A model generated the notes under the pieces. The model searched no databases. It had not been told where the DNA came from and was given only the letters and a program-made list of their open reading frames with translations. From Ceratodon purpureus (lineage: Eukaryota; Streptophyta; Bryopsida; Pseudoditrichales; Ditrichaceae), in the NCBI GenBank assembly GCA_014871385.1, contig CM026421.1, forward strand, positions 23,987,383 to 24,051,382: a stretch of 64,000 nucleotides of DNA, read 5' to 3'. This document shows positions 6,992-56,951 of the stretch, in pieces (the stretch's first letter is position 1; each line of letters starts with the position of its first letter). The translations under genes were made by a program, and so were the position numbers.

Positions 6992-8340
6992 CTAATTTGG
7001 GTCAGACGACTCTTTTTGCAGGAATTCAGTGACGGCGTTCATGAGAGCATCCTCCCGTTTTAGAACCTCTGTGGCTTTTTCTTTCCTTTTTAGCAGTGCT
7101 TCGTACGCCTCCACTTGATCTTCCACCCGTGCGCGAGCTACTTGGAGTTGAGATTCCGTGAATTTAAGTTTCTTTGTCAGCCGCTCAAGCTCCACTGTAG
7201 CGGAATTCAGGATTGCATGGCTGAGTTTTGCGAGAGACTGAGTGTTCGTAACCGAGTCTGCTTGTGGCTTCACAGACAAGAGCTCCGCCAACTGAATTGA
7301 AGTAGATTTGTCTATCTGAGCAGATTTGTTATAGTGGTCTTCTGCACGTCGATGGTGTCGGAGCATGGCTTCATGCTTTTCGCGGGCTATGATGACCTTG
7401 TCTTGCTCCTCTGTGAGCGTCTTCTTTATGGCCTCTATATCGGCAATCGATGCAGCAAAATCAGCACGAACCTTCCGCTTGTTCCGTTTTACGGCTGCGA
7501 CTATGTCCTCATTGATCACGTACAGGCCCTTCACCACTGGAGAATTTGCAGCGCAAACACATGCGGGTTGCTGGAAATTTTGAGCACTTACCCTCTGTGC
7601 TTCGATCGCGTTTCTCGTGCCCCGATCCTCTGTATTAGCATCTACCTCTGCTTTAACGCCTGTGTGCTGCATATGAACAGGGGAGTCAGATCGAAGTACT
7701 CAAACATTGCATGCTCGAACAGGGGAGTGCATGCAAAGGGCCTTACCAAAAAGAACAGTATGATATTTCAGAGGAATACTCCTTCGCTCTTCAAAGTAAA
7801 TTCAAAGCATTAGAAACTTACGGTTGCGGGCGATCCTGAGGAATCTGTATTAGTGATGGCTGCCTGTGGCATCACTTTCTTGTGGACCCATGGCAGAGGA
7901 GCGTTGCAGCTGGCGTAGCGCGTCAACGGAGTAAAGGGACTCTTCTTGTGTCTAGGAAAACACCTACTGAGAGCAAACGATAACCAGTTCACAGACCCCC
8001 CGGTGGCCTCTACAGCAAGACCGCGTGCGAAGTGGTATGGTAGGACTCGGCGCAGTAGTGTGCGTTGATGCACTCGTTCGAACAACTCCGTGACGTAAAG
8101 GTGATATGGTTCTCCGTCCTCGTCGCGGAATTCGTATCCTCGGCACGGAGCTCCAACGCCCTCCGTGAACTCTACGGCAGGACCCCAGCGATTGATTACG
8201 TCCTTTCGTCCGAAGATGTCTCGGGTTGCAGGATCCCCCGGCAAGAAACCGTCTCCGTTTAGGAGCATGCACAAACGAAACCACTCCGCCCACTGCTCTT
8301 TAGATCGCTCCATGTTGGACAACTGCTGGACCACAGACAC
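6992..8340 (-). CDS. Trp-pair domain plus coiled-coil protein in element 1
   Basis: Two exons on minus joined in frame: 8340-7822 (173 aa, donor GTAAGT) and 7666-6992 (224 aa, acceptor CAG), giving about 397 aa. Exon 1 starts with an amphipathic stretch bearing Trp17 and Trp20 and a second Trp at 52 followed by Gly61/Gly63. This spacing resembles the accessory proteins at 33801, 56217 and 59344, although it is the weakest match. Exon 2 is almost entirely charged heptad-like coiled coil (about residues 200-380), as in a self-associating protein. A possible extra intron inside exon 2 (donor AG|GTAAGTGC near 7590) leaves the frame open either way. Position and orientation relative to TNP1-like and TNP2 match the element 2 gene at 33801-34262. 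Function unknown. Confidence 0.6.
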
Positions 8341-25790: not shown

Positions 25791-25913
25791 CACTACTAGA
25801 ATCACCCCCCCGAAGCCACGTTTGAAAACAACGTTTTCTCCGTTTAGCCACGTTTTCTGAAATATGGGTCGGGGAGGTCTGCGAAGCAACATTTTTCGAG
25901 TGGAAGCAACGTC
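25791..25913 (+). mobile_element. Possible terminal fragment of another CACTA-type element
   Basis: It begins cactactagaatcacccccc, close to the CACTACTAGAAA-type terminus common in plant CACTA elements and MITEs, followed by repeated 'ccacgttt/cacgtttt' words. It ends exactly where CACTA element 2 is inserted. The other end was not found to the right of element 2, so the fragment may be truncated or the resemblance fortuitous. Confidence 0.45.
25911..25913. repeat. Target-site duplication GTC, left of element 2
   Basis: GTC immediately precedes the CACTA terminus at 25914 and is matched by GTC at 43959-43961. CACTA elements create 3-bp duplications. Confidence 0.9.
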
Positions 25914-25929
25914 CACTAGAGCAGAACAG
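25914..25929 (+). repeat. Left TIR of CACTA element 2
   Basis: cactagagcagaacag: 16 bases identical to the inverted right terminus; similarity fades after that (cattctgtcc against tgtccagagt on the other arm). Confidence 0.95.
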
Positions 25930-26882
25930 CATTCTGTCCTGCGTTAAACTGCGTCAACAGTGACGTAAACCTGGACTTATGGAAATTAGTGTGGAAAAGT
26001 GATCCAAATAAACATACTGCGCGTTAAACGTTTTAACATGCATGCGTCACTTTTGACGTCGTTTTAACGGGTTCTGTCAAAGAGTGTCAACTTGAATTTT
26101 GAAGTGACGCTTCAGCGTTAAAGATAACAATGGGAGACAAGGACGCGTCAACTTTGACAGAGCTCTGCTTTGTGGAAAGTAATTTTTCCGGGGAGTTTTT
26201 TACCTCAGGGTAGTTTAGTGATGGATGAATTTAGTCTCATCCCACGTCAGCACGTTTCTTTTAACGTGGAGGGCGTTTAGGGTGACATGAGAGACGTTCA
26301 ACTGCGTTATTAAAGACGTTGGTCTAGAGTTTAGGTTCTGCTGACGTGGCGGCTAGGTTGTCTATAGGCTACATCGTAGGGGGTGTCAACAGTGACGCTC
26401 GCGTTTAGGATGACATAAAAACACGTCACACTGCGTTTCAAGAAACATATGGACGTGGTTGACGTGTCCACTATGCATGTAAGGTAGGGATGACGTGGCG
26501 GCTAGGTTTTCACGGGGTCTATGTCCTAGGGGGAGTCAATAGTGACGTGCACGTTTTGAGTGACACAAAAACGCGTCTAATTGACGCGCGCGTTAAATTA
26601 GACGTCGGATGCATTGCTGAATGTTTTGATGTGGAAGTGTCACTATTGACATGGTTTTAACGTGAACGTGACACACTGTACGTAGGTTTAACGTGATAGC
26701 GTCACTATGAACAAATTCGTAACTATTACAGTACTTTTGACGTTCACATGTCAATCTTAACGTAGCTTTAGCATGCATTCCGTTGTGAACGTTACTAAAA
26801 ACGACAAGTGCTGTTCATTACACGTGGAACTGCGTTACGTTAAACATCATTTACAGTCATTTGACATCAAATCTGTGAAGGG
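25930..26882. repeat. Left subterminal motif array of element 2
   Basis: Densely packed short motifs: GCGTTAA, TGACGTxx, GTCAAC and CACGTCA words in both orientations, often paired as GCGTT followed a few bases later by TGAC. Subterminal repeats of this sort bind the TNP1/TNPA protein in the En/Spm system. The array runs up to the stop codon of TNP2, so it also forms the 3' flank of that gene. Confidence 0.85.
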
Positions 26883-29800
26883 TCAATGCTCACTATCTGA
26901 TGAATCGCCGAGGAGGTGGTCCGCTTCCTCATCGTCAGTGTCCGCTGCTAGGGGACCAACCATGTGCCTTTCTACAAAGGACCCGTTTACTATGAACTCC
27001 TCCGAGTCTGAAGATTCGGGCCTGCTGGTGCCAATGTTATTGGCACGTGATGACAAAAGGCCGGTGATCTGTGCATCTGCGTCGTCCTCTTCTTGTGCAA
27101 AGGCGCGACCTCCACGGCTGCCTCGAACATCAACCTTGCAGACCACCTTCCACGGCCCGTCGTCGGTCGCAAAAAACACTTGCTGCACATGAATGGGAAA
27201 AGCAAATGATTGGGGACCAAGAGGTGCTCTGTACTGATCTGCGAAGTTCACGGAAAGGAACCCGTGTTCATCCCGCTTCATTGTAGGAGCAGCACCTCCT
27301 AGTCTTCCTTTAACCCAGGAACATACAAGAACTACGACGCACGTACGCCTGTAGTCCAATTCGAGTATTTCTTCAACATGGCCCACGTACTCCTCTGTCT
27401 CTGCTCCTCCATCATCTGTGAAGGATGCATGCACTCCACTGTCCATGGTGGTGTTTGAAGCTTCGACTGAGCGGCAACGAAAGTGCATGCCATAAGCCTT
27501 CATTGACCGATACGCGGTTGCAATAAATGATGGAGGCCTCGACAAATCGAACGTGGTCTGGTCGACGCGCCTGGAGCCAGTGGCACGGTCGGTGGCAACC
27601 GCGGCAGTCAGCCAATCTGAAAAGGCTGGCAATGCCCGCAGCTCAGAAGGCGTATTAGAGGGCCTCCGTCCCCTTCGAGGAGGTCTTCCACGATGGCGCT
27701 GGCGGCGTAGAGACGACCTAGACTCCTGTTCCCCCTCGTATGCTCTGAAGTGCGCAATTATGAAGACATGGAACATCCGTTGCGTTAGATTTAAGGGAAA
27801 CAGTGTACGCAGTGACACAGTTTAACGGATGTTAACATGATTTCCGGTGACGTTAACGTAAAATCGTGTTTCTAAAGACATTACATCATGTTTATGGACG
27901 TCGACACATGAAGGGGAAAAAAAACAGGGAAGGGTCACAGCTATAGTTTAGGGTGGCACCGTCTGTAGTGTTGAAGTGAGGCGGCGTTCGTGATTACAAA
28001 GTTGTGAATCCATCCACGAAGAGTGCGGGACAGCAGTCGCCTTACTCCCTTGCCCTCCACCATTTCATCGTGCATTGCCTGCTCTTCATTTGCGTCCCAC
28101 ACTCTGCGGGACGTAGCGCCGTAACGTTCCATATACTCTGAGCAGAATCCAAGTGTTTCTTCCATAGAGTATGCCTCTGCCATGCAACCCTCGGGCCGAG
28201 CGTACGAACGCACATAATCCTTCAGTGTCTTCATGTATCTCTCCATTGGATACATCCAACGACTCTGAACTGGGCCGCATAGAAATAGCTCCTCCATGAG
28301 ATGCACAAGAAGGTGCGCCATGATGACCATTGAACCTAGAGGAAACTCGCGCTCAATCATACAGAGTGTCTCGTTTGCGTCTGCAACCCACTCCTGTTCT
28401 TTGGCCGGGTTGATTGTGCGACTGCACAAACGCCTAAATACCCTGCTGACTCTCATGATGCAGGTCCGGACTTCGCGATTCATATCGACATTCCTCAGTG
28501 ACACGGGTAGTATCTGCAAATGCCAAAAAGAGAGTTCAATAGAATGTCAGAAAGTACGGAATTAATATTCTGTTTACATACTACAGAAAGGTACAAGACG
28601 CCTCATTGTTTTCAAGGGACATGAATCTGCATACGTGCTTTGTCTTCAACCTGGGTTACCCCTTGTTTCCAGTAACGTGGAATTGCGTGGAGTGCAAGTT
28701 TAAAATAACAGGCAACAACATGTTCTGACGTCAAAGGTACGTTACTCACATTTCAAGTAACGTTACACTGCGTTTCCGAGGAAATTAGCATAACACGAAG
28801 GAACGTGCTAAAGTGTTAACTAAAACATTCCATTGACAGGAAGTAACATATTGCATGTATCTCTATAGCTGATACACATTCAGTAGGTCAACTTAAACAT
28901 AGTAGCAACGAAGAATTGAAATTTGCTTACCTGTTGCATTAGGATGTGAAAGTCATGGGATTTAAGAAATCTCAATCTTCCTTCAGACACCCTTTTGTGA
29001 ATGGCGCCTGCATAATTCTGTGGCACCTTCGTCGATCCTATTACGGCTAGCATGTCAGTCTTCGCTTGTGGTGGGAGAACATAAGGTGCGTGTGGCATGA
29101 ATAGCCGGCCGTCTCTGCCGTCAGTCTGTCTCAACCATAAGTTAGACCTCACTCCCATATCTTTGAAGTCCATGCGTCCTCGAGGAAAGTCAGTCTCCCC
29201 AAACAGAGTCTTTATTATATTTTCACAAAGGTTTTTCTCGCAATGCATGACGTCCAGGGTATGCCTGATCAGCAAGTCCTGCACCACATTGACGGCTACG
29301 GTCAAAATTCGAAAATTCTACATGTTTCTGTGGGATGACAGAAAGGGACGTTTTCGAGTGACATAGGTTGACAGGTTTTAACGTTGTTCAGTGTTTAAAG
29401 TGACGGTACTCTATGTCACAGGTTCATCATTTAAAGACATCGTGGTGACACGGGATAACAGAGTTTCACGTTACAAAGCATCTCTTGCACTTAAACGTAT
29501 CGACGATTGGAGCAAAAATAAAAAGTGATGAGCGGCATGGCACAAACCTTCCAATATGGAAGGGAGAAAAGCGCGGAAATTCTCTTCACTCCGTGCCTCC
29601 TCACAGGATCGCCTGGACCATCTGCCCGGCCACCGGAGGCAATGTACGCCTCCCTTTCTTGTGCAAATTGCAGGACATCGTTGCCTGTCATCCTTGAACA
29701 TGAACAACCTCTCTCTTCAAGACCGTTGAATCGCATATCGGTACGGAATGCATGGTCCTCCGGAAGACGCTGGCGTGCACCTACGTACACTATCTTCTGG

Positions 29801-31568
29801 CCGTTAGGACCCCTCGCACTTCTGGAAACAATGTTCGGACCACAAACTGGGCAAGCCCTATAGCCCTTTGTTTGTTGTCCTGAAATCAATCCGTAAGCGG
29901 GAAAATCTGAAATTGTCCATAATAAGAGGCCACGGAGTGTGAAGGGCCTCTCCGCTGGATCTGCTGAAGCGTCCACGGCTGGTACGCCTCCCCAGAGGGC
30001 ATGCAATTCTTCCAAGAGTGGCGCAATGAAAACATCTATGTTCTTGTCCGTCGGTGACTCCTTGCCCGAAATTAAAATGCTCAGCATGATGAAAAAGCGT
30101 TTTGTGAGTAACCACGGCGGTAGATTGTAAATTATTAAGAGAACAGGCCACGTTGAATGTGACGTACTACGAACCGAAAAAGGGTTCAGTCCATCAAGTG
30201 ACAGTGCCATGCGCACGTTCCGATTCTCAGCTTGAAACGTGGGATCTATGACTCCAATGTGTCTCCAAGCGGGACTGTCGATTACGGAGTCCATTACGGG
30301 CTCGCCATCCCCGTTTGTGGTCACCCCACGCTCTGAATGCCATTTCAGAAGCTTTGCAATTGCAGGAGAGCCAAACATGCGCCTCAGCCTCGGAATAAGG
30401 GGAAAGTGCCTTACAACCTTCGTCGGTGCTGTCTTCGTACCTTCATACAGATACAGAGAACACTACATCACGTTACAGATGACACAAATTGTGTGACACA
30501 TGACACAAACAATGCGTCTAAGATGACATGAATGCATTCTTAATGGTGACATAAAGTGCGTTTCAAATGACATAAACTGAGTTACTCATGACATTGCCAC
30601 GTTTCCAATGACGTATACTGACTTACAGATGTAGAAAACTAAGTCACAGATAACATAAGGTGCGTTACGGATAACACATAGTGAAATTCCGTATGACATA
30701 CACTACGTTCCAAGTGACACATAGTACCTTCTCTGTATCTGCTTTTCCCGCAGCGGGGGCATGATTCGCAGTCCGCGTGCTCTCCACGAAATAGAACGCA
30801 ACCTGCAGGACAAGCATGTATAACATTGTACGCTAGTCCGAGTGCTTGCAGCATTATCTTTGCCTTGTAGTGCTTCGCAGGCAAGACGTTTCCCTTTGGA
30901 AGAAGCTCCGCCGACAGATAATGAAGCAGCTCAGTTACAAATGCGTTGCTCACCCCATGCGTCGTGCACAGTGTCATGATGACAACCACTGCTGAGATTA
31001 GGCTTACAGAACTACCTGCATACACTGGATGTGAGGCCTCCGAATATAGTAACTCCAATGCCTCGACTGTGCTATCTGCGAAGTCTGCTTCATCAGTGTC
31101 ATCGTTGGGCCTATTCTCAGAATCTTGCGCAATCTCCTGTAATTCTTCAGCGGTTCGCAGAGCGTCCTCAAACTGCTTATGAACATCGTGGTGGCCAGGC
31201 GGATCATCACTTGTGTCTTCGGGTTGAAGATGCTCAAAAACCTCTTCATTGCGGCCATCAGTATTGTCTACCGTCCACTCCTCATCGCTGTGGTACCACG
31301 CTCCATCCTCCGGGTACCCCTCTGGGGGATCTCCTCCAATCATAGAGCGGTACAGAAATGGGTCGCGTCCATAAGATTTCAGATGCTTAGTTATTGCTCG
31401 CACAGGCAAGCGTCGGCCTCCGTGACAGTACGTGCATGGGCATGACCACCTCGTTATAGGAACCTCCGTGCTTGCAGCGAATTGAAGTTCGTGATGGTGA
31501 ATTATCTCCTCAGTCGATCTCCACTTGCGTTTTCCAGTGTTGAACGCCATTTCTGCACAGGAGGCCAT
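26883..31568 (-). CDS. TNP2 transposase of CACTA element 2, intact
   Basis: Five exons on minus: 31568-30728, 30440-29548, 29278-28931, 28513-27960 and 27744-26883. All junctions are GT-AG with matching phase; the sum is 3498 nt, 1165 aa, without a stop. Exon 1 has the C-x-C-x2-C...KHLKSYGRDP motif and an acidic linker, then CPAGCVLFRGE and CPRCGKSRY. Exon 2 is the Transposase_21 core (LDGLNPFSV, ISDFPAYGLISG, ACPVCG). Exon 3 has DVMHCEKN. Exon 4 is DUF4218-like (SRWMYPMERYMKTL). Exon 5 is DUF4216-like with an acidic Ser/Asp C-terminus. It is clearly homologous to the element 1 transposase but strongly diverged, with introns at the 30727-30441 and 28930-28514 positions where element 1 is continuous. 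MAFNTGKRK, six codons in, is an alternative start. Predicted role: cutting and rejoining CACTA ends in the nucleus. Confidence 0.95.
30441..30727. repeat. Motif array filling intron 1 of TNP2 (element 2)
   Basis: Nearly the whole intron consists of loosely periodic copies, about 20-24 bp apart, of a word like atgacataaa-tgcgtttca (for example 'gtgacataaagtgcgtttca' and 'atgacataaactgagttact'). It is the same bipartite GCGTT/TGAC motif as in the subterminal arrays. Confidence 0.8.
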
Positions 31569-31967
31569 GTGATAGATTAGGACGCGGACTCCATGCAGCT
31601 AATGATGTAATTTACGCATGTGCACTTCACCGTAAGGTCCGTTTAAAGTGATAGTAGAACGCGTTTTAGAATGCGTTATATGCCGTTTCACGTGACATAC
31701 ACGATGACGCGCAAAGACGCTACAGAATCATATATCGCGTTTCATGTGACGTGACATGACGTCTCTGTAGATGTTACATTATGTCACAACACATTTTCTA
31801 TGACGGAAGCAGCGAGACACATCTGACGTAGTGAGAACATATATCCAAAGCACTGTTGCCATTTTCAGGGGCTCCGTAGACGACGGTACGTTTGTTGCCA
31901 GTAATGCATATCACAGGCTGCCGATTTGATAGCCCTACTTCCGCTCATGAATCCAGCACTGTTTGGA
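31569..31967. repeat. Motif-rich spacer upstream of TNP2 (element 2)
   Basis: Non-coding; 31620-31830 is dense in GCGTTT, TGACGT and TTACGTGAC-type words. By position it holds the TNP2 promoter. Confidence 0.6.
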
Positions 31968-32456
31968 TCAGTCAACGGAGTAGTCTAATTTGTCCCAGCC
32001 TTCGTGATCTTCAAGGGTGATTGCTATATCAGTCTCCTGTGTCGCTGAAGATGTTGGTATCGGTGAACGCTTGGGCAACTGCGACACGTACATCTTCCCG
32101 TCCCCGATGGCGCCTAGGTATGGATTGGCTATGCGTTTCATTGCCCTTGAAGCAACCGGTCTGGTCATTTTCGGCTTCCAACTCCGACTTGCAATCCTAG
32201 GAATGTTCCGGGACCTGCGAAGCTCACAATACGGGCCCAGACGCAAAGGATTCAAGGTTCGTATGTTTTCAGCCTCAGTGATCACAGCCTCCGTCCTTTC
32301 AGGGGGGGTCAAATACTTGTCTAGATTTGAGAGGATAAGGATTACTTCACACTCTTCCGCAGTCGGAGTCCAAACTTCGTGTTCCTCATCAGAGAACCCC
32401 CAACTGCTTGTATCTTGCGGACTTTGACGGCAGCGGTCCGTTTTCTGGTCACCCAT
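31968..32456 (-). CDS. Unrecognised 162-aa protein in element 2
   Basis: Complete frame on minus (ATG to TGA), directly upstream of the TNP2 gene and in the same direction. I do not recognise the family. The N-terminal third is acidic and Trp-containing (WGFSDEEHEVWTP), followed by a helical segment with a Leu/Ile-rich stretch (ECEVILILSNLDKYL), then a basic middle (about residues 80-115, Arg/Lys-rich, including RSRNIPRIASRSWKPK) that could be a nuclear-localisation or nucleic-acid-binding region, and an acidic end. It is flanked on both sides by the GCGTT/TGAC motif DNA, which supports its being an isolated coding island. It could be an exon of a longer gene. Confidence 0.5.
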   Translation of the reverse strand: MGDQKTDRCRQSPQDTSSWGFSDEEHEVWTPTAEECEVILILSNLDKYLTPPERTEAVITEAENIRTLNPLRLGPYCELRRSRNIPRIASRSWKPKMTRPVASRAMKRIANPYLGAIGDGKMYVSQLPKRSPIPTSSATQETDIAITLEDHEGWDKLDYSVD

Positions 32457-33060
32457 AACCTGAAAGGTTTATGTCGCGTTTCACGTGACGGCATGTGATG
32501 TCTTGATAGCATTACATTACGTTAGATTGCGTTTCCAGTGATGGAAAATAATGACGCATGCAAGACGTACTAAGACTATTCAACGAAAGCAGTGGCATGA
32601 GGTAATACTGGTCACATCTTCATCAAATAAAGTTCGTACTAAGTGGAGATTGGGGTTGCTACCTGGGTTTATGGAGGCCTGTTCGCTGTGTGTGTCCAAG
32701 AATCCAGTCTCAATGACCCGAATCCACGTGTCAAACCGAACTGTATTCACATGTCGGACACCATAATTCAAAGCTCATGGCAAATTTGGCAAAAATAGGT
32801 ACGAGGTTTAATGCTTGCAATCGGACTCGTTCAACCATCGCCACCACGGTAGTCCATTTCAATGGCAATCAAGTCCTACTTTGAGTTAGATTTTCTGGAC
32901 TAAAGCGTTAACTATCACGTTACGTCCCGTTCTGCATGACGTTGCGATAAGGTTCTATCACGTCAGGAGTGACGGTAGATTACGTTAAAGGAGACGCAGA
33001 GTTTAGTAACCTGTGACAGTAGATGACTTCATATCGCGTTTATTCAAATTGAGTGGACAC
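32457..33060. repeat. Motif-rich spacer in element 2
   Basis: Clusters of GCGTTTCacgTGACG and TTACGT words at 32470-32530 and 32890-33050, with ordinary sequence between them. Confidence 0.6.
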
Positions 33061-33800
33061 CGCAACACAGAATGAGAAAATCATTAAGTAGGATTGTCAC
33101 CTGTGTCTTAGATTCACACCGCGACGGGTCTCACATGCTCCAGACGTCTTCCTCCTCCTCCTCCTCCTCTGGTTTCCAGCTCACCTATTTAACTGTACAC
33201 AAAACAGTTCGACAGAGCTATATGACTAAGTCTCATGTTCTAATCTAGGTATTAGGATTGCACATTCCACATGTGCGAACGACTTTGTGATCATACAAAG
33301 TCTTTGTACAAAGAGTATCTGGAATCAAGTGAATAGATTGCATGTACGCATGGTACCGGCTATCAAGTCACTAGATTGCATGTACGTTCAGATTTCGGGC
33401 AAGTAATCCTAGCCCTGTGCAGCTGTACTAGCTAGTTCAGTACTCATCAGTAGTTAGTACTGCTTCTGTTTGTGACTCCCATACTTCCAATTCAATCACC
33501 TCCGACGCATGCAAGAGTGTTTTCACGCAAATGAGAGATATGCAATGCCAGTACAATATCCATCAAGGGAAAACCGGTAGGTCCTCCATGAGGTCGCCTT
33601 TTTCAGTACTGAATTTGACAGCCACATCTCCTTCCTTCTAACTCTTGTAATGAGAGGGTCTTACCTATGATCGGGGTGTGCAAAAACATCTGACTCCGCA
33701 GATTCCTCAGTCACCAGAGAGGCCGTTTTTTTAATCTCAGACACTGTTGGCATTCTGTCCTCCTGGCTCCGAGCTTAGCGTCCTCTGCTTCTGCTAGGAA
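33061..33800. other. Upstream region of the Trp-pair ORF (element 2)
   Basis: Non-coding; contains a (CTC)n microsatellite near 33150-33172 and a short direct repeat (two 'agattgcatgtacg' words near 33336-33385). Unlike its neighbours it lacks the GCGTT/TGAC motif. Confidence 0.4.
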
Positions 33801-34262
33801 ATGGACAAGCATGTTTTTTTTAGTTGGTTGGCCGAGGTTCATTTGCGAAAGCAAACACAAGGCATTGAGCTCCCGAATCTCCCAGCCCTTGCGTCGTTTG
33901 TTACATTTTCTAACGAATTCTGTTGGAGTGATCCTTGTTACCAGGAGGTGGAGTCACTGGGAAAGGCGACCGGCATCCATTTCGTAGACTTCTTACAGCA
34001 GTATCATGACTCCAAGAGTACCCGCGGATCAGCACCTGCACATCCAATTCTCCTGGACAATGTCACCGAAGACACCGGAGAATCTAAGCCCTGGTCGTAC
34101 TCATTCAGAACCTCCGACTGTTCTTCTCTCGAGACCCACTTGGACGCTGCCACCTCTGTTTACCTGAGTGCCAGCGAGTGTTCTTCTCTGGAGACCCACT
34201 TCGACGCTACCACCTCTGTTTTCTTGAGTGCCAGCGAGGGATCAGTTACCGCACTGAACTAG
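33801..34262 (+). CDS. Trp-pair accessory protein of element 2
   Basis: Complete 153-aa frame, ATG to TAG. Residues 6-68 contain Trp9 and Trp42 (the latter in WSDPCYQE), then Gly58-Ile59 and a Phe-rich end, followed by APAHPILLD at about 79-86. The same pattern, with Trp-Trp spacing 33, WSD-x-CY-x-E, Gly-Leu 16 residues on and a [AL]-x-PI[IL]L strand, occurs in the protein at 59344-60045. The C-terminal half has a perfect-register 20-residue tandem duplication (two copies of CSSLETH...SASE, encoded by a 60-bp direct repeat at about 34118-34237). No known family is recognised. It lies between TNP1-like and TNP2, in TNP1 orientation, exactly as the related gene does in element 1. Role unknown; a small adaptor or DNA-binding partner is a guess. 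Confidence 0.65.
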   Translation: MDKHVFFSWLAEVHLRKQTQGIELPNLPALASFVTFSNEFCWSDPCYQEVESLGKATGIHFVDFLQQYHDSKSTRGSAPAHPILLDNVTEDTGESKPWSYSFRTSDCSSLETHLDAATSVYLSASECSSLETHFDATTSVFLSASEGSVTALN

Positions 34263-35350
34263 GTGTCAGATGCTACTGGCGCACGATGTAGCACTGTGTA
34301 GCGGATCAGACCTTGGTGATATTTTACTACACATTGGCTTTAGTTTCTCAGACTCCTGGACAACCCCGCCCTGAATTGACATTCTGTTGCGTTTTTTGGG
34401 TCAGAGATGTGTCTTCTCTTCATCTTAGTCCCTTGTGTTGACTTTCTGGGATTTGCCCTCTACAGCTAGCAAACTTAGGCATAGACGGATATATGAGTTA
34501 TTCAGTAAACATATTTCAGCGACTTCCGGCTTAATATGACTATGGCTTTATCTAATTTTTTGCGTCACAGTTCATGAGAAATTCATTCACCTGTTTGTGC
34601 TTGTTTATCACTATGTTGTACAACTACGTTACATCGCGTTAACAGTGACGTCGACCAGGTGCCATCGCGTTAATAGTGACGTAACATCAGTCACCGTTGA
34701 CAGTATGTCACGTTTAAGATGACAAGCGAGTTATAGTTAGAATACGTTTAAAAGGACGTTACAATACGCGAATAAAGTGATCTGTATGCTCGAGCAGTCA
34801 GAGCGACAGTGTGATTGATGAAATGATAATTCTCACCTGTTTCGAAGCCTCCAGAAATAAAAGTATCTTCACGTCACGTCTGCTCCTGCATTACAGTAAG
34901 AGTAATGAGTGTTTAGTTAGACGTTTTCTTTTGAAATTCTCTTCGGCAACCTTACATTCAGATATATTTCGCGTTAATTACATCGCTTCTAGAACTACTG
35001 TTTGAAAGTATAAACAGGCATTGAAAATAATTAATTTCTGGGACTTCCTGTTTAATTTGAGTTCCGCTGAGGCTCATTTTTGGCGTGAACTGTCTTCATT
35101 TTTTCACTCAAGCTGCTTTGCTCGTTTATCCCTTTGCTGTATACCTACCTTACCTCGCGTTTAAATCATGCTCATGGAACGTCTTCCATGACAGACGACC
35201 ACGTTCTGTCACGTTAATAATGACGTAACACCCATTAGGCTTGACTGTATGTCACGTTACAAATGACATGCGAGTAACAGTTATATTCCGTTAAAAAGGG
35301 CAGTACTTGCCGCTCTGTGTCATCAGTAACCGGGAACAGTCATAGCTTTC
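34263..35350. repeat. Motif-rich spacer in element 2
   Basis: Two clusters (34620-34800 and 35150-35300) of GCGTTAACAGTGACGT-type words. The two clusters resemble each other in order (tgttgtacaact/ctgtatacctac, then TTACxTCGCGTT, then 'tatgtcacgtt...atgacatgcgagt'), which suggests an old duplication of about 530 bp. Confidence 0.65.
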
Positions 35351-35728
35351 GTGAGAACACTAGAATTTGCTACGATAACAGTAGTCATACTTCTGAGTAT
35401 GATTCACTTTAACAGTGGAGATACACCTTTTTCTCCGGCGCGTACCTGGCATGTTTGTTTAGGCAAAGCTCCTCTTCTTGATTTGCAGATTGTAGAGAAA
35501 GAGGGCTTCTTCCGCTTCCAGAACCTGCTAAACAATTTGAAAGTTAGAAGGCATGGTATAATCTCAACACACCTTAGTATTCACCGTCTGTATAGAAGCA
35601 GCATGTCTAAAAGAATTCCATTGGAAGAACGTAGCTTGAGAGACATTTTCGAGTTTATGCTTGCAATAACTGAAAGCGATCCGTGGTCAGTTGAAGATTC
35701 TCACCTCTATCAAAGCTTGATGAAATAA
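35351..35728 (+). CDS. Unrecognised small ORF with hydrophobic N-terminus (element 2)
   Basis: 125-codon frame ending in TAA. Residues 6-18 are hydrophobic (FATITVVILLSM) and could be a signal peptide or anchor. The rest is mixed, with a basic stretch (RLYRSSMSKR) and an acidic helix near the end. The initiator may be a non-ATG artefact of how the frame is opened (the first codon is GTG), so a later ATG or an upstream exon is possible. No family recognised. It is a coding-like island between two motif-rich stretches in element 2. Confidence 0.35.
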   Translation: MRTLEFATITVVILLSMIHFNSGDTPFSPARTWHVCLGKAPLLDLQIVEKEGFFRFQNLLNNLKVRRHGIISTHLSIHRLYRSSMSKRIPLEERSLRDIFEFMLAITESDPWSVEDSHLYQSLMK

Positions 35729-36973
35729 ATAACGTCACCACTGACGCTCTAATTTCTTCCCTTTATAGCGACCCAGGAACTTATCCACGACATGGAGCAC
35801 CGTGCGTTAACATTAGGATCCTTCAACTCGTAAACATGAGATGAGTTACCTACATCACGTCACCACTGACATTACATTGCGTCACAGCGGACAGTATATG
35901 ACGTCACAGGAAACATTACAACACGTCTTCAGTTACATTTCATCACGTTACATATGACATTGGATTACATTGTATGACGTTAAAAATGACAGAAGATCAC
36001 GTCTTCGTCGTCGAGCATTCCTGGATTTAAGCCCTGTCACACCTCCTTCAATGGCGTTTCATAGCCACATCTCGTGCACGCTCTAATTTCTTCCCATTTC
36101 TGCGACGGAGGTACATACATATGATAAGGTGAACATGAGGATACTTAAATACTTGTACACCTCTTTCTTAAACTTTACATGCATTTTTATGGAACTTCTG
36201 GTCCTGCATTACTAACTACACAGAGGCTGTTACCATGACCATATCTATCAACTTACGTATGGAAAATGTGACATCCTGAAAACAGTAGAGGTAGTAAATT
36301 CGACATGCCTACTAGAATACCCTACTAATCCTCGTTATGAAAAGCCCCTGGATTATCGGACACGTAGGCGCAGGGCATTGGACGATAAAACATCTCCAGA
36401 ACATTGTAACAGTGACCATGAACTTCAATCCGTTGAGGCAGAGTCGGGAAGCTTTCACATTGACTAACAATAGCGTAGGTAGCTTTTTTCTAACCGATTA
36501 CATTGACTAATTAATTAATTTTGGTTACTCACATGTAGGCTATGAAAAGCAAAAACTCTGTCCACGCAACAATTACCAGCCATTATCAAAGAGCTCCGGA
36601 TATGTTAAATGGTACATGAACACCCGTCACAGATGACATTAAATCTCGTCACGAGTGACATTAATTTATGACATAGTTGACATCATATCTCGTTGCAACA
36701 GGTTAAAGATGACAAAATATTTTGTTAACATCCTGGTACAGTGGACAGTATACCATGTTACAGATAACAGGACTTCGCGTCTCTCTAGACAGTATACTCC
36801 GTTAGGAAAGACGTGTGAAAACATGAACGCACAATCCATTGACAGCACGGAAGTAAGGGATAATTACCCGATCACCGCCGGGTAGTTGGACATGCGCACG
36901 CCCTTAGGGTCAGCAATTGGAGATCACTTATGGCAGCCGGCGTAACAAACATCATGAAGGATCCATACTCGAA
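35729..36973. repeat. Motif-rich spacer and promoter side of TNP1-like gene (element 2)
   Basis: The GCGTT/TGAC family is dense at 35860-36010 (repeated CACGTCaccacTGACAT words) and 36625-36800. Between them (36015-36600) is ordinary AT-rich sequence. The part near 36900 should contain the promoter of the TNP1-like gene. No other gene recognised. Confidence 0.55.
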
Positions 36974-39900
36974 ATGGCGGCGGACAAGTTAACTCCTGCA
37001 TACGAGGTCCTTCGTGATGCGATCGTGGACGCCAACAGGAGAGAGGTGGCGCTCCGATTGAAGAACGCAGGTTTTGACCCTGACTTCTGTGGAGACTTGG
37101 TGCCTTCGCGTGGATGCTCGTCAATCAGGTCGTCTGCTGCTCCAACCGCACCAGGAAATCGGAGTAGACGCCGATCGTCCTCAGTGGAATCGGACTTCCA
37201 ACCGAGGCGGAGCACGCGCCTACGCCGTCCTCTGTCGCACCGGGAGGAAGCGGAGGCAGCTCTGACGAAGCCGACTGCACACGCGAAGACAGTGAGTAAA
37301 CCCTAAACCCTACCTGCTGTTCAATCCGAGAGCGCAGCATTCCATTTCCATGTTCTGTCCTCAATAGAATTGCGGTTTGTTAGTGTATGCTCACTTAGTG
37401 GATGGCAATTAACGCATTCTGTTGTTGAGGGTACACATTATGTTGTTGAGGGTATAATTCTTGTCAGGTTTTCTGGACAGGGCTGTCATTTCACATAGTT
37501 AGGTGGGCGGCTTTCACCAATTAGGGTTGCATTTCATTCGCATTTGTCAGAATCCGAAGGAGGGAGGCGAGGTTTTTGCAGAGTGGAGGCAGCGTGGTTC
37601 GAAGCTCGTTTCTCGAAGGAATACGCTGTCGGTGGCGGCGCTTCGATCGGCGATTGGAGGAGAATTCTACTGGCTGTCGGAGATGGAAGACGACCACGAT
37701 GATCCTAGAGCGAAGACCCGCGCCCGCAGCCGCAGCATCATCACCAAGCCCCGGCGCGTGGAGACGAATTGGATGGACCGCGAGATTGGAGGATGCCCAC
37801 CTCGGTCCAAGGCAGGGAGTGCAGGCGGTGGGAGGGCGTCTCCGGGGCCAGCTCACCGAAAACCCGCAGGGGTTCTGAAGAGAACCCGCGGCATGGAGAG
37901 GGGAGCATCGCAAGACGCCGAGGAAGACCTAACTCCTCCAAGGCGATGGCGTCCTACGTCGGATATCTCCTCTCCTGTGGGGCGTTCTTCGGGCTCCCGC
38001 ACCCCCCTTGCGTCGGGGAGGGTGGCCATGCGCACAACTCGGAGCGACTCCCACAGCTCGCATAGAGTTCAGTCCGAGGAGGCTGGATACGAAGACGACA
38101 TGGAGGAGGAGTTTGAGGAAGAAGACATGATGGAAGAGGAGGAAGACATGGAGGGGTACGAGGAGGAAGACGACGGGTCACCGAAGGAGCCGATGCGAAT
38201 TAAATTGGATCGGTATGGCGTGCCAGTCGGATCCCACGAACCACTCCTTAATGCGGCCCTACAGAAGTTTGCACGCGCCCTGGATCCGACTGCAGCACCC
38301 GGTTGGAAGGGACAACAGAAGGCGGCTAAGGCGTCTCTGATCGAGCGAGTGAGGACAGAGTTCGAATTCTACGGTGAGAGCACTGAACTGAGTGAGAAGT
38401 GGTTCAACCAGAGGATGTCCAGGGCAGTGACTCGGGTGAAGTTCGCTATCAACAAGCTGATCAGGTTTGGGCATTCGAAGCCACCAGACATCGCCACAGA
38501 CCACTGGGATAAGCTGGTGGAGATGCGGGATGACCCAGCAGTCCAAGAGAAGTCGCAGATGATGTCGAGCATCTCACTTGGGCGGCCTTCGAAGCATGGC
38601 CATGCATGGAGCCAATCAATAGCGGCAGTGTCCGCGCTGGTAAGCTCGTTTCTAACTCTCTGTCCTGCGTTAGTAACTATGTTGTGATTCTTGTGACAGC
38701 ATTTTGCGTTTACTTGTAGTGACACTGTGTTTCCCGATTTCGTTTTTGTTAAAGGTGACGTCTATCATCGTTTACTGTGACATATGTTTATGTTTACTGT
38801 GACGTTAAGTTTGACATTTTCTCACTGCCGAAACCCTCTTCAAATGTGTTCTTTGTTTTTTTTTTTTTTTCCTTCAATGTCCGTGCGGTTTTCTACTCCG
38901 CAGATCCCGCTGCAGCATTCCCATGTACTGTCCTCCTCTCGTTTTTATTGTGAATCCATGTCACCGGGTCTAGGTAGGAGTATCTGGACATGGCTGTCGG
39001 TAATGTGTTTTTTTGGCATTTTCTGGGCTTCTTCCGTGACTTCTAACCTGCTTGCACTCCACTGTCCGCACTGGTTTACGTTTCCTTTCAATACTCTGTC
39101 TTTTATTTACTTGTAGTGACACTTTGTTTTCCAATGATTTTGTTGTTAAAGGTGACGTCTATCATCGTTTACTGTGACATATGTTTATGTTTTCTGTGAC
39201 GTTAAGTTTGACATTTTGTCACTGCCGAAACCCTCTTCAAATGTTTTTGTTTTTTTTTTTTTTTTTTTCCTTCAATGTCTGTGCGTTTTTCTACTCCGCA
39301 GATTCCGCTGTAGCATTCCCATGTACTGTCCTTTTCTCGTTTTGGGCGTGAATCCATGTCACCGGGTCTAGGTGGGAGTATGTGGACATTCTTGTCGGTA
39401 ATGTGTTGTTTTGGCATTTCTTGCGTTTTTTGGGCTTCTTCCGTGACTTCTAACCTGCCTCGCACTCCACTGTCCGCACTGGTAAGTGCTCCTTTCAATA
39501 TGCCGTCTTTTATTTACTTGTAGTGACACTTTGTTTTCCAATGATTTTTTTGTTAAAGGTGACGTCTGTTATCGTTTACTGTGACAGTAGTTTATGTTCA
39601 CTGTGACGTTAAGTTTGACATTTTCTCACTGCCGAAACCTTCTTCAAATGTTTTTCCTTTTTTTTTTTTTTTTTTCCTTCAATGTCTGTGCGTTTTTCTA
39701 CTCCGCAGATTCCGCTGTAGCATTCCCATGTAATGTCCTCCTCTCGTTTTTATTGTGATCCATGTCACCGGGTCTAGGTAGGAGTATCTGGACATGGCTG
39801 TCGGTAATGTGTTTTTTTGCCAATTTTTGGGCTTCTTCCGTGACTTCTAACCTGCTTGCACTCCACTGTCCGCACTGGTAAGTGCTCCTTTCAATATGCC

Positions 39901-42761
39901 TTCTTTTATTTACTTGTAGTGACACTTTGTTTTCCACTGATTTTTTTGTTAAAGGTGACGTCTGTTATCGTTTACTGTGACAGTAGTTTATGTTCACTGT
40001 GACGTTAAGTTTGACATTTTCTCACTGCCGAAACCTTCTTCAAATGTTTTTTCCTTTTTTTTTTTTTTTTTTTTCCTTCAATGTCTGTGCGTTTTTCTAC
40101 TCCGCAGATTCCGCTGTAGCATTCCCATGTAATGTCCTCCTCTCGTTTTTATTGTGATCCATGTCACCGGGTCTAGGTAGGAGTATCTGGACATGGCTGT
40201 CGGTAATGTGTTTTTTTGCCATTTTTTGGGCTTCTTCCGTGACTTCTAACCTGCTTGCACTCCACTGTCCGCGCTGGTAAGTGTTCCTAAACCTGAATCA
40301 CTACCCTGTCATCACTTCTAGTTAAGTTGTGCTTTAGAAGAACAGCGATTCTAGTTTACTTTGCCCTGTCATTGCGTTTCACCGGAGACATACGCGTTTG
40401 GAGTCTCATTCATGTGCGTGTCACCAGTGACGCTTCTTTGCGTTGCTTATAATGTTTCTTGTGACAAGACCTCGCGTTTCAAGTGTCATGAGTTTGCGTT
40501 TATCCAGGACGGGAGGTAACATGTTTGTGTCTTAGTAAACGTATTTGATCCGTTCAATGTTACATGTGACGCACTACGAACTTTACTATTGCGGTTTTCT
40601 AGGAGCTCTGAAATTGACAAAGTGGGAAACTTCTGTGGCAGAGTATTAGACTTGGACGGCAGCCCTCAGAAGCGGAAGTTGCTGCAGAGGTGAAGGCAAT
40701 GCGACAGAAAGACTTGGAGGAACGCATAGCTGCAAGGAAGAAGAAATCTGAAGGTACACAAGATGCGAGGATGGAAAAGCTTGAAGCTCTGTTTGCGGCC
40801 CAGGAGTCCAGGCTGAAGAAAGTCGAGGACATGATGACGGAGTTACATGCCAACATGACCCGGGTGTCTACTCCTCCACTCGTGGAGACTGTGCCGCCCA
40901 AACAGAAGGCCTCCAAGAAATCTGGAGCCAGACCCCGCCCTAACCGTCCCAGCAGCAAGGCAGCAGAGGAAGTCGTGCCGCCTCCAAACACTTCGAAGGC
41001 TCCCCCGATGCCGCCGCCGACCCAGGATGACATCACAGCAATGGAGGACGCTGCCGACCCCAACACTATGATGACATCAGAGGAGAAAGTAGCCACCAAG
41101 TCGGATGTCATATCAGCATGTCTTCAGACAACGCAGGATGTGGGGGCTGTCCCGACAACGGAGACGATCCACAGCACGGATGCACCCGAGGACATGGTAG
41201 AAGATGGGCGAACGGTCGGTGCCACCGCGGAAGAGAGGGGCCGAGAGGAGCATGTGGAGGCGGAGGAGTCGGAGACGGACGACGACGAACATTCTCCAGC
41301 TCAACATCGACGTGACAGCACTTCCGGAGCAGCTGCACCTTCGGGGGAGAAGGTCTCCTCACCAGAGTCGGACGAGCAGGAGGTCGTTAACACAATTGCA
41401 GCCCTTTCCACCGAGAAGCCGGCTCCAGATGATGTAGGCACCTGACGTTGCAAACGACTACGTAGATCACACTTTACTTTCCATATTAACTCTGTTTCAA
41501 CTAAGTTAGAAGCTGCGTCATCGTTTTGAACAACTCCCCTTAGCCCGTCTTCTTTGACAAACATTTGCGTTAAAAATGACATGACATTGCGTTTCTTGTG
41601 ACGTAGCACCGCGTCTTTAATGACTTGAGTCTTTGTTTCTTGTGACGTAGAATCGCGTCTTTACTGACAGGAATTTGCGTTTCTATTGACATACGCGCAC
41701 GTATCAAGTGACGGTACAAAAACGTAACCATTCGTAAAAGTTAACGTACCTGTGTTCTCGTATGTACATTGTTGGCGTTCCAGAGGACATTCACGAAAGG
41801 AATGGCGGTGGAGTTGCTGAGTAGCGCCTATGACGACGCTTTCGCCACTTTGGTTGGCTGTGGAGTGCTGCACGGAATGCCAGGGGAGTCGGTCCACTGC
41901 CAGAGAATAGAGGATGACGAATTCTCCGTGCAGGTGACTACAAGCATTAAGGACGACCACGACCTCCAGTGCCCACTAGAAGACGAAGACGTCCTCACCA
42001 TGAATCAGGCCATCGGGTACTTCATTCGGTGGCCCGCGACCGACCTAAGGCAAGCACCCAGTGACCGGGTAGCGATGGCAGTGGGGACAGTGGGGGCCGT
42101 CGAAGGGATAGTAGCGGCAGTGGGGGCTGCTGCTGAAGACCCTTCCCCCGCAATTCTAGACCATTTTCGTGTTTCAACACGGGCGGCCTCGAAGAAGATG
42201 AAGTCCCCGCCCCCGGAAAAGAAGGCGCAGTCCAAGCGACCGCAGAGTAAGGACGAATCTGCAAACATCAAAAAAAGAGTTGCCTCTGAGGCAACACAGG
42301 TAAGTGGTCACCCTCGTCCTTTCTCGCACACCTTAGAGGGGCATTTGAAAAGTGAATTCACCATCGTTTTCCATATAGACTGCCCTTTGTATTCGGTTGA
42401 GTTGCAGGTCTCTCCTGGTAAAGCACGGTGTCGCAGGGTTCCCCTAAGATCCGAACTGCTCAGTAGATCCCGTTTGGAGGCGTTGACGCAGGCTGTTGCT
42501 TTCCTCTACCCTCGTGATGATGAGTCAATTGTGTATACAGGGAGAAGCTGGGGGTTTGGAGAAGTCAACGGTTGAGAAACCCACAGGACCTGTGAAGTGC
42601 TACAAGAAGGTACGACAGATCTACCCTCTTTTAAAATCCTCAGCCCATCCGATTTCTCAGGAGACCCTCTAATGCTATGTTTTCTAACTGTTCTGTATAT
42701 GATGTGGATTGTGCAGATTAAGAAGAATCCAGCACGAGAAACCAGCATCACCAACAAATAG
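36974..42761 (+). CDS. TNP1-like CACTA accessory protein of element 2, intact
   Basis: Six exons, all phase 0: 36974-37291, 37551-38639, 40642-41433, 41784-42299, 42541-42609 and 42717-42761; total 942 aa with no stop. Exon 1 is a short helical/basic domain. Exon 2 has a long acidic run (about residues 225-262, Glu/Asp/Met) followed by a Ptta/En/Spm-type domain (GWKGQQKAAK, EKWFNQRMSRA, HWDKLVEMRDD, EKSQMMSSISLG). Exon 3 begins with a coiled coil (EKLEALFAAQESRLKKVEDM) and continues Pro/Glu-rich. Exon 4 carries the C-terminal TNP1/DUF8039-like domain (VGCGVLHG, SVHCQRIEDDEFSVQV, AIGYFIRWP) and a Lys-rich tail that may be a nuclear signal. The domain order equals the element 1 protein. Such proteins bind subterminal repeats to bring the ends together. 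Intron 2 is 2 kb and contains a tandem array. Confidence 0.88.
37298..37310. promoter_or_regulatory. Telo-box-like repeat in intron 1 of TNP1-like gene (element 2)
   Basis: aaaccctaaaccc begins six bases after the intron 1 donor. It occupies the same place in the gene as the sequence at 4801-4815 of element 1, though in the opposite orientation relative to the gene. Confidence 0.6.
38640..40285 (+). repeat. Four-copy ~400-bp tandem array in intron 2 of the TNP1-like gene
   Basis: Units aligned on 'ggtgacgtct' begin at 38754, 39151, 39558 and 39954 (spacing 397, 407, 396). Each unit holds GCGTT/TGACGTTA words, a poly-T tract of 14-20 bases, an acceptor-like 'ctactccgcag', a conserved roughly 180-bp stretch, and finally 'tgtccgc(a/g)ctg|gtaag', a copy of the 3' end of exon 2 with its splice donor. 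Copies 3 and 4 are the most similar. The duplication therefore included the exon boundary. Confidence 0.9.
40286..40641. repeat. Motif cluster at the end of intron 2
   Basis: Dense GCGTTTC-x(4-6)-TGAC words between 40370 and 40580, ending at the acceptor 'tgtggcag' before 40642. Confidence 0.7.
41434..41783. repeat. Motif cluster in intron 3 of the TNP1-like gene
   Basis: At 41565-41720 the pattern GCGTTTCttGTGACgta / GCGTCTTtaaTGACtt repeats about every 22-25 bp, filling most of the intron. Confidence 0.75.
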
Positions 42762-43942
42762 ACTGTAGCCATTTTTCAGTAGGAAGGTGCTCGCTGTCCA
42801 AGCGTTCCGGTAGCCGTTTTGCGTAATGCTATTGAATGAGTGTCCATTGGAACCTAGCGTACATACTATTGGAACTACTGTGCAGGATCTGTACTCATCA
42901 GTGACATTTCAGTCGCGTTTCGCAATAAACGTGATTGACTTTGTTATATTGCGTTTCAAGTGACGTTCCTGTTTGCGTGAGTGTACGTTATATATGACCT
43001 TCCAGCTGCGTCTTGCAAAACCAGTTTTTGCGTCACTTTTGACGTTGTCGTTCACCCTTACGAGTGTTACCCTTCGTCACATTGAACGCTGTCCATGCGT
43101 CAACATGAACATCGCATTCTGTTTCATTTAACAGAAACTTGAAAATGGATGCGTGAAATGGTTGACATTGCATGTGTAACAGTACATCTAAAGCCGTCTT
43201 AAGAAACGCGTTATTCCCAGTCCATGTGTTTAGCAGCGTCAACTTGGACACTATATTCTGTTTCTTTTGACACGAATTTCTAATTGGGTGCATGAACTGC
43301 TTGTTTTCTCTTTTATAATTCTATGTCTACAGACGTCCCTGTAAACGCGTTAAAGTACTTCGAATATGTTTATCTGCGTCAACCTTGACATAATGCTGTA
43401 TTTCTTGTGACACACGATTCGAATTGGGTGCATGATATGCTTGTTTTCTCAAACATAATCCAATGCCTGCAAACGTCTACGTAAACGCGTTCAAATAGGC
43501 ATTGACTGCGTTAAACTGCGTCACATTACGTCAAAGATAACATCCAGTCTCCACCCAAAAAACCCGTCACACTGCGTTTACGTTAACAGAGAATGCCGGA
43601 AATCGAAGATCAAGCCACGTGTCACAATCTCGGCCATCGAAAACTTTAGCCAGACTTCTGATTTCCGTGCCACGTCAGCCAATTTTTCATCCATCAGAGA
43701 CGCGGGAAATATCCACGTCACCGTCGAAGTTACTTACCCTGGGTAACTTCCATAATCTGTGTTCTGCGTCACTTTTAACATAGCGTCAACTCCTGTTAAA
43801 CGGGTTAACATAAGGTTGACGCAGCACGTCAAACCAATGCGACGTCCGTGACCTTTTTGCCATTTTTGCGTCACAAAAACTGTCCACGTTAAACTGCGTT
43901 AAACCGCGTTAAAAACCGCGTTAAACGACGTCACTCTGGACA
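42762..43942. repeat. Right subterminal motif array of element 2
   Basis: Non-coding, with TGCGTCAxxTTGACxT and GCGTTAAA words throughout; the last 80 bp contain four closely spaced GCGTTAAA copies before the TIR. At 43150-43500 three diverged copies of a roughly 150-bp unit (tgcgtcaaCxTTGACAC ... ttgggtgcatga-tgctt) can be seen. It corresponds to the left array at 25930-26882. Confidence 0.85.
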
Positions 43943-43958
43943 CTGTTCTGCTCTAGTG
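43943..43958 (-). repeat. Right TIR of CACTA element 2
   Basis: ctgttctgctctagtg, the exact reverse complement of the left 16 bases. Confidence 0.95.
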
Positions 43959-43961
43959 GTC
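43959..43961. repeat. Target-site duplication GTC, right of element 2
   Basis: GTC follows the terminal TAGTG and matches 25911-25913. Confidence 0.9.
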
Positions 43962-44940: not shown

Positions 44941-45050
44941 ATATGTATATTTGTATATACACATATACACATACACATACATACATATATATATATACAT
45001 ACATATATATATATACATACATATATATATATACATACATATATATATAT

Positions 45051-45130
<80 letters not shown>
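44941..45130. repeat. (TA)n / (CATA)n microsatellite
   Basis: About four copies of a 20-bp unit 'catacatatatatatatata' followed by an uninterrupted TA run of roughly 65 bp. Apparent frames rich in Tyr/Ile here are low-complexity artefacts. Confidence 0.95.
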
Positions 45131-45135
<5 letters not shown>

Positions 45136-56216: not shown

Positions 56217-56951
56217 ATGGATCCCGTTGATAAAGAAACATCCCAGAAGAGGAAACGAAGTCCCTCACGTGATGAGCCGCGCGACCTCCCTCTCTTCCCT
56301 TTCTGCATCTCGCACGACGATTGTGAACAATCTCACCTCCCCATTTGGAAGAATGCTGCGATTCGAAGAGGGGGTCGGTACCAGCACCTAAAGAACGCCC
56401 CTAAGCAAATCTGTTGTTTGAAGGACTGGATTTCTAGGGCTCTCGAATTCGAGAAGGACACTGGGTTGCGCTGTCCCGACTTCAGCGTTGTTATGAAAAT
56501 GGCGGAAAATCCGAAGTGGATGGGGAAGTGGTCAACTCACGCATTGCTCTGTTTTCAGGCGGCTGCGAATGCCAGCGGGATTATGCACCCACCTTCAATG
56601 CACGACGAAGAATCTGAGGTGAAGAATGTGGATATCAGTCAGAGCCCTGGGAAAGAGCGCCCGCGTCGACAGTCGCCAGAGACCGCTGTTGCCACCGGAG
56701 CGTTCGTAGAGGTTCCTCATCCGGCGAAGAAGAGAGCTGAAAATTCCTCGCGCAAGAAGAAAAGCGCTGCCACCACTCCGGCGTCACCAGGGGTAGTGGA
56801 TGAACTTGGCCCGTCACGCTCCCGCCATGGACAGTCCGGCCACCGCCTCTCCAAGAACGTGCGGAAGGTGCTGGTGAACTTGGAGGAAGCTTGTGTAAAA
56901 GGTTGTACAAACGCACGCACTGGTGATGGGGTGATGCACGAGCCTCACTGA
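56217..56951 (+). CDS. Trp-pair accessory-like protein (56-kb copy)
   Basis: 244-codon frame, ATG to TGA. After a basic, possibly nuclear-targeting N-terminus (KRKRSPSR) there is a helical region with Trp71, Trp101 and Trp105, and Gly121-Ile122, giving the same Trp-(33)-Trp-(15)-Gly-Ile pattern as the proteins at 33801 and 59344. The second half is Ser/Pro/Lys-rich and probably disordered (RKKKSAAT). A further open stretch at 57000-57284 may be a spliced 3' exon: acceptor-like CAG before 57091, and FIDDEFNEAFDQIVL reads well. No known family. It lies in AT-rich DNA with no TNP1/TNP2 genes visible nearby, so it could be a transposon remnant or a host relative. Confidence 0.6.
   Translation: MDPVDKETSQKRKRSPSRDEPRDLPLFPFCISHDDCEQSHLPIWKNAAIRRGGRYQHLKNAPKQICCLKDWISRALEFEKDTGLRCPDFSVVMKMAENPKWMGKWSTHALLCFQAAANASGIMHPPSMHDEESEVKNVDISQSPGKERPRRQSPETAVATGAFVEVPHPAKKRAENSSRKKKSAATTPASPGVVDELGPSRSRHGQSGHRLSKNVRKVLVNLEEACVKGCTNARTGDGVMHEPH

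Follow-up and report, generated by a model that had tools for sequence, protein, structure and literature searches.

A small-protein gene family carried by CACTA transposons of the moss Ceratodon purpureus

Introduction

How many genes does a CACTA transposon carry? Two is the usual description, according to the portion of PMC8978399 cited here. The question is raised again by a 64,000-nucleotide stretch of the moss Ceratodon purpureus (assembly GCA_014871385.1, contig CM026421.1, positions 23,987,383 to 24,051,382, forward strand), hereafter the window. It holds a complete CACTA element, element 2, in which a short open reading frame (ORF) for a small protein, P0001, lies beside the transposase gene TNP2 (Table 1). 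Is this ORF a gene, does it belong with the element, and what might its product do? We find that it is a real gene under purifying selection, that it lies inside the bounded CACTA element, and that in a set of elements it keeps fixed positions relative to TNP2. The window is part of contig C1; the genome comprises 362.5 Mb, divided among 151 contigs, and all genome searches described below cover this one Ceratodon purpureus genome.

Results

The ratio of non-synonymous to synonymous substitution (dN/dS) was calculated over a core of 66 codons, and the 45 closest pairs were printed. Between subfamilies, where dS could be estimated, it came to 0.04 (L036/L037), 0.08 (L036/L038 and L033/L041), 0.14 (L046/L047), 0.15 (L041/L039), 0.19 (L035/L044) and up to 0.21 (L004/L046); dS is mostly above 1.5, which makes these ratios rough, and saturation affects many other pairs. 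Among very close pairs, which differ by few changes, the ratio goes as high as 0.77 (L006/L007). These values exclude a chance ORF.

Element 2 belongs to the CACTA superfamily and has the terminal inverted repeats (TIRs), 3-bp target-site duplication, TNP2 domains and subterminal repeats of that group. Its TIR is perfect over 14 bp, its 3-bp flanks are identical (GTC/GTC), and the subterminal repeat GCGTTAAA occurs, both strands counted, seven times in the two 600-bp ends against three in the 16.8-kb interior. Ten other genomic copies were fetched. The left end aligned in six of them and both ends in four (C5, C7, C6d and C2a), each of which has its own matching duplication (TCT, AGA, ACT and TTA, respectively), differing between copies; of the remaining copies, the left end alone was read in two and neither end in four, among the latter C2b, a 1.4-kb fragment. 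CACTA ends, the 3-bp duplication and a TNP2 with Transposase_21, DUF4218 and DUF4216 are all shared with known CACTA (En/Spm) elements, whereas the extra small gene is particular to the moss element. The N-terminal part of TNP2 was assigned through its match to the TNP2 of element 1 in the same window, a Transpos_assoc match being below the cut-off. It is from this N-terminal ORF that the small gene starts about 2.2 kb away, head to head.

Is this neighbourhood peculiar to element 2? We set the best 150 of 1940 Transposase_21 candidates in the genome against 284 places of the small-protein family. A family gene lies within 20 kb at 25 of these 150 TNP2 places; uniform random placement, repeated 200 times, yielded 4.4 on average and 13 at most. 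In 23 of the 25 pairs the two genes occupy opposite strands. TNP2 lies 2.5-2.8 kb upstream, head to head, in nine pairs and 6.2-6.8 kb downstream, tail to tail, in eleven; the rest are two at -14.5 kb and three singletons. Random placement ignores the clustering of transposons, and it is because the distances recur, more than because of the count, that chance is unlikely. The other 259 of the 284 family places are without a TNP2 among the 150 scored. Around a second family member in the window, P0002, a TNP2-type sequence lies about 6.4 kb upstream on the same strand, to the right of the window (L056), and a look for CACTA ends gave no convincing TIR pair enclosing P0002. In 10-kb stretches around three other members we saw a DUF4216 match in one (L053) and no TNP2, DUF4218 or DUF4216 match in the other two (L054, L055).

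The history of element 2 likewise ties the small gene to the transposase. Identity was profiled along the element for five copies (C2a, C6b, C6d, C11 and C7). The first four match the window element at 91-96% identity between 25.9 kb and about 34-35 kb, a part comprising TNP2 and most or all of the small gene (C2a stands at 83% at 33.9-34.9 kb), and beyond about 34-35 kb they fall to 69-82%, the last 45 bp excepted. C7 keeps 93-100% throughout, one bin of 85% excepted. Because the left half is at 91-96% and the right half at 69-82%, the small gene moves together with TNP2 and the right module has a history of its own; the identity profiles point to module exchange with a break near 34-35 kb. 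In the C2a copy the drop begins within the small gene, near 34.17 kb. The right module is called TNP1-like by position, and its ORFs 37503-38687 and 40690-41445 have no Pfam family above chance, the third ORF being outside the scan. Between its ORFs, at 38686-40288, a unit of about 400 bp stands in four tandem copies.

P0001 and P0002 are homologous, a relation that their sequences put beyond doubt. BLASTP aligns them over 94 amino acids at 27% identity (E = 3e-12), P0002 scores z = 25.8 (100 shuffles) against a profile made without the P0002 subtype, and a profile of 22 P1-type sequences matches one of 11 P2-type sequences with 99.9% probability (E = 1.4e-34). An earlier note on this DNA had joined ORFs at 33801-34262, 59344-60045 and 56217-56951 (the last here called P0003) by a common signature. 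All three are present when read directly, and P0001 and P0002 do have W-x32-W-x15-G-[IL] and WSD-x-CY-x-E in common, as well as PI[IL]L, which each protein has at +40 relative to its second W. The pattern W-x(32,33)-W-x15-G-[IL] occurs in exactly 3 of the 208 window ORFs of at least 60 amino acids, where 500 shuffles average 0.06, a post hoc figure since the motif was derived from the same three proteins.

In the genome, P0001 as query gave 657 first-look candidates, and all 150 that were scored match (E 2e-100 to 8e-18); P0002 gave 729, with matches at all 142 scored. Each list is the top-scoring portion of a longer one. The two have eight places in common, and therefore the subfamilies grade into each other. 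Among 25 chosen family sequences, aligned and numbered as in P0001, W9, P25, P28, E49 and G54 are invariant and K3, A29, Y47, L53 and G58 nearly so. Contig C6, which makes up 30.5% of the genome, holds 98 of the 150 best places of the P0001 list (binomial P 2e-18) and 54 of the 142 best of the P0002 list (P 0.056). Its size (110.5 Mb) and the UG tag that a 112-Mb contig bears in another Ceratodon record suggest that C6 is the sex chromosome. Two unlike members also occur in tandem on the same strand, P2-like upstream of P1-like and 3.7-4.1 kb apart, at C4:2579387, C6:17352783, C6:23863418 and C13:9452494; a similar tandem at L054:4877-6796 has a spacing of about 1 kb.

Searches across 5.8 billion proteins, one of which scored only the 7994 candidates sharing most words, returned 11 distinct family proteins (P0004-P0014): two are named, both from Ceratodon purpureus, and nine are on short contigs. 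KC19_4G147300 of Ceratodon purpureus is a family protein. The family's absence from the proteins of other organisms may reflect the masking of transposons in annotation. That no known domain could be recognised agrees with Pfam, in which no relative of P0001, P0002 or the 25 aligned members rises above chance, the only rows having E 0.32 and 0.089. Among the papers listed, we found no publication describing the family, judged by titles and abstract openings and with the Ceratodon genome paper not looked up.

What kind of protein is it? P0001 is predicted to consist of an N-terminal four-helix domain of about 75 residues and a disordered, usually acidic, Ser/Thr-rich tail. In the AlphaFold2 model the predicted local distance difference test (pLDDT), averaged in blocks of ten, is 75-91 over residues 1-70, and the predicted template modelling score (pTM) of the whole model is 0.44; the helices agree between two AlphaFold models, which were built from the same eight sequences. 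Foldseek against the PDB gave 82 rows at E <= 10 and none at E <= 0.001. The best structural neighbours, weak matches all, are helix-turn-helix proteins (the first five of 38 rows with model 1, all ten rows with model 2), presumably of the XRE (lambda-repressor-like) type. A search of the PDB by sequence profile gave 11 rows (E up to 1), the best an antibody chain at E 1.3e-4; no stretch of it passes alone and we take it for chance. Net tail charge is -6 to -13 in 10 of the 12 family proteins listed. Two long open frames of 725 and 645 amino acids (L048, L049) might be taken for fusions; they simply extend upstream of the domain through sequence taken as non-coding, and were set aside.

Behind the domain stands a candidate SUMO-interacting motif (SIM). 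A SIM has a hydrophobic core of four residues, to which acidic or phosphorylatable residues contribute, in the account given by the cited part of PMC12751080. As a sequence pattern, the small protein has the four-residue core, the acidic flank and the conserved place. The SIM-like motif, P-I-x-[LIV]-[DE]-acidic, keeps a fixed offset in 19 of the 29 members, while 1000 shuffles gave a mean of 0.12 and a maximum of 2; the pattern is absent from L036-L038, P0008 and P0009 and weakened in L006-L008.

The earlier note had proposed a single family of four proteins, of which P0001 and P0002 make up the part that stands. P0003 belongs to a different conserved family. As a single sequence it gives non-significant BLASTP E values of 1.1 and 0.20, an hhalign probability of 0.1% and z = 0.07. 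Its own genome family counts 388 candidates, with 150 of 150 scored matching and 15 aligned, and conserves W-x15-P and a WTxxALLxFQAVANASGVMHPP-like stretch over the 150 scored places. Compared as a family, it lines up with the small one in register, with W, P, W and G-[IV] falling together, across 59-60 columns (P = 0.011, or 0.006 with an enlarged small-family profile), and its score of 20.4 against the enlarged profile exceeds all 200 column shuffles, the best of which reached 19.8. This is suggestive of a remote cousin, a kinship as yet unproven. The P0003 family has no excess near TNP2 (1 of 150 places versus 1.3 expected), and it lies near 6 of the 284 small-family places versus a chance mean of 3.7 and maximum of 8.

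The fourth protein had been seen as a weaker version of the signature within element 1 (6992-8340). The proteins there match nothing in the small family, the one at 7810-8340 giving hhalign 0.5% and z = 0.17 and the one at 6992-7672 hhalign 0.1% and z = 0.72, and the genome family of the former remains at shuffle level, 43 of 200 shuffles reaching its score. The note had also put the element-1 protein in the same slot, and in spirit this was right. The 7810-8340 family (881 candidates, 151 matches in the genome, profile built from seven members) lies within 12 kb of 28 of the 150 best TNP2 places versus 1.5 expected, and 27 of these 28 neighbours share the strand of TNP2 and lie 4.2-7.1 kb downstream of it. 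A comparison of both lists gives one TNP2 place with a neighbour from each family. Since this family is unrelated yet fixed near TNP2, different CACTA lineages carry different, unrelated accessory genes. Its members have ELFERVHQ-like and LPxHFARGL stretches in common. Profile-profile comparison, which the note had named as a possible refutation, thus joins the P1 and P2 types, is suggestive for the P0003 family and fails for the element-1 family; the note's "accessory component" holds for the P0001/P0002 family, with its fixed placement in a set of elements and its purifying selection, and not for a family of four.

Discussion

With somewhat less than an even chance, we read the small protein as an accessory protein of moss CACTA elements whose domain binds DNA or transposase and whose motif binds SUMO, affecting host SUMO-linked factors or silencing. 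The weak fold resemblance suggests that the helical domain would bind the DNA of the element or its transposase; the motif P-I-x-[LIV]-[DE]-acidic, being conserved, suggests binding of SUMO or SUMOylated host proteins. The small protein would then either recruit SUMO-linked chromatin or repair factors of the host to the element or counteract SUMO-dependent silencing at that site, and by analogy with VANC, silencing relief or repair recruitment might raise TNP2 expression or transposition. We infer a DNA-tethered accessory factor acting on the host SUMO or silencing machinery.

VANDAL elements form a transposon superfamily other than CACTA. As described in the cited part of PMC5735166, the VANC anti-silencing proteins of Arabidopsis VANDAL are accessory proteins too, encoded by the transposon and diversifying along with it. 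The comparison is one of how things work only: binding motifs and demethylation were measured there, whereas the role of the moss protein is a prediction.

Another parallel lies within CACTA itself. C48 is the Ulp1-type SUMO protease family. Extra domains reported for seed-plant CACTA elements, in the part of PMC8978399 cited, include Transposase_24 and Peptidase_C48, the latter in ORF2, and such elements resemble ours in having accessory coding sequence beside TNP2. Pfam found neither domain in the window proteins scanned, P0001, P0002 or the 25 aligned members. The difference is that a protease stands there and a SIM-like motif on a small helical protein here; both may touch the SUMO pathway. 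A more specific proposal, which we consider doubtful, is that moss CACTA elements evolved a SUMO adaptor of their own, tethered to DNA. Encoded next to the transposase and combining a SIM with a domain of helix-turn-helix kind, it would capture SUMOylated silencing or repair factors at the element as the counterpart of the Ulp1-type protease in some angiosperm CACTA elements; it would have diversified into many subfamilies in the course of an arms race and accumulated on the sex chromosome.

A less likely, still serious, explanation keeps the accessory gene and drops SUMO. Here the acidic tail would be an ordinary transcription-activation region and the helical domain DNA-binding, making the protein an element-specific activator of the head-to-head TNP2 promoter, as the nine head-to-head layouts, the acidity of the tails and the weak helix-turn-helix neighbours would allow. 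However, the tight P-I-x-[LIV]-[DE] at a fixed offset is more specific than activation regions need, and the eleven tail-to-tail layouts offer no common promoter.

Gene capture by plant transposons is well known, and the extra genes differ between CACTA lineages, as would be expected of a passenger, for example a captured host gene hitch-hiking without a role in transposition. We think this unlikely: that diverged copies are under purifying selection, and that the gene recurs at the same place in many elements, suggests that the element benefits from it, and the protein searches gave no host gene outside Ceratodon. It is very unlikely that the ORF is an exon of a same-strand TNP1-like gene, even with ORF 37503-38687 on the same strand about 3.2 kb downstream. 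The tail end S-A-[SN]-[EQ]-G-S, with a stop five residues on, is common to P0001, L006-L008 and P0006, P0007 is recorded as a complete protein of 206 amino acids, and the left module with the small gene and the right module differ in history. That all four proteins form one family is scarcely credible, for despite the shared register of the P0003 family, P0003 fails as a single sequence and its family is not enriched near TNP2 and barely so near the small family, and the element-1 protein fails every test.

A third gene family, selected and at fixed transposase distances in one moss genome, implies that CACTA elements have a larger accessory toolkit than assumed, and one whose parts are more readily replaced. 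To a well-known transposon group it contributes a helper gene of a new kind, from a family without recognised relatives. If the small protein does act through SUMO, the SUMO pathway would be a shared target of independent CACTA lineages, and one could test how DNA transposons withstand silencing in a moss whose sex chromosome is very large.

Other features of the window

Table 1. Positions of the features discussed, in window coordinates
Feature	Position	Strand	Remarks
Complete CACTA element (element 2)	25914..43958		18,045 bp; carries the small gene; ends and flanks read, copies compared
Target-site duplication GTC, left copy	25911..25913		
Left terminal inverted repeat	25914..25927	+	CACTAGAGCAGAAC
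DUF4216 part of TNP2	26883..27818	-	E = 1.3e-4, below curated cut-off
DUF4218 part of TNP2	27941..28519	-	E = 1.5e-30
TNP2 transposase in pieces	29491..31568	-	Transposase_21 at 29491-30378, E = 3e-65; N-terminal part 30639-31568
Small accessory protein P0001	33801..34262	+	153 amino acids plus stop; ORF read directly
Predicted four-helix domain	33801..34025	+	Helices 3-20, 28-36, 44-57, 61-74 (AlphaFold2)
P-I-L-L-D, putative SUMO-interacting-like motif	34044..34058	+	Acidic residues after it; fixed offset in family
60-bp tandem duplication in disordered tail	34115..34234	+	Single in several related copies
Right-hand gene module, TNP1-like by position only	37503..42575	+	ORFs 37503-38687, 40690-41445, 41769-42575
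Right terminal inverted repeat	43945..43958	-	Exact complement of left
Target-site duplication GTC, right copy	43959..43961		
P0003, different conserved family, possible remote relative	56217..56951	+	Own genome family; profile tests
Second family member P0002	59344..60045	-	233 amino acids from first ATG; homology by BLASTP and profile
Element-1 protein, from an unrelated accessory family that has a fixed slot of its own near TNP2	7810..8340	-	Profile and placement tests

A coiled-coil-looking protein lies near a P2-type gene in two places (window 63391-63867 and L055:678-1418), and an ORF with SEF-x-P-x-ENLDTI recurs at L055:2793-3617 and L056:2-580. At 16012-16155 there is an inverted repeat with 71-nt arms ending in CACTAGTGGAAA; the same start is seen at 1188, and these are possible ends or relatives of element 1. 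A dense palindromic repeat array occupies a very A+T-rich stretch at 44912-45194, with related copies near 52.2 and 55.5 kb.
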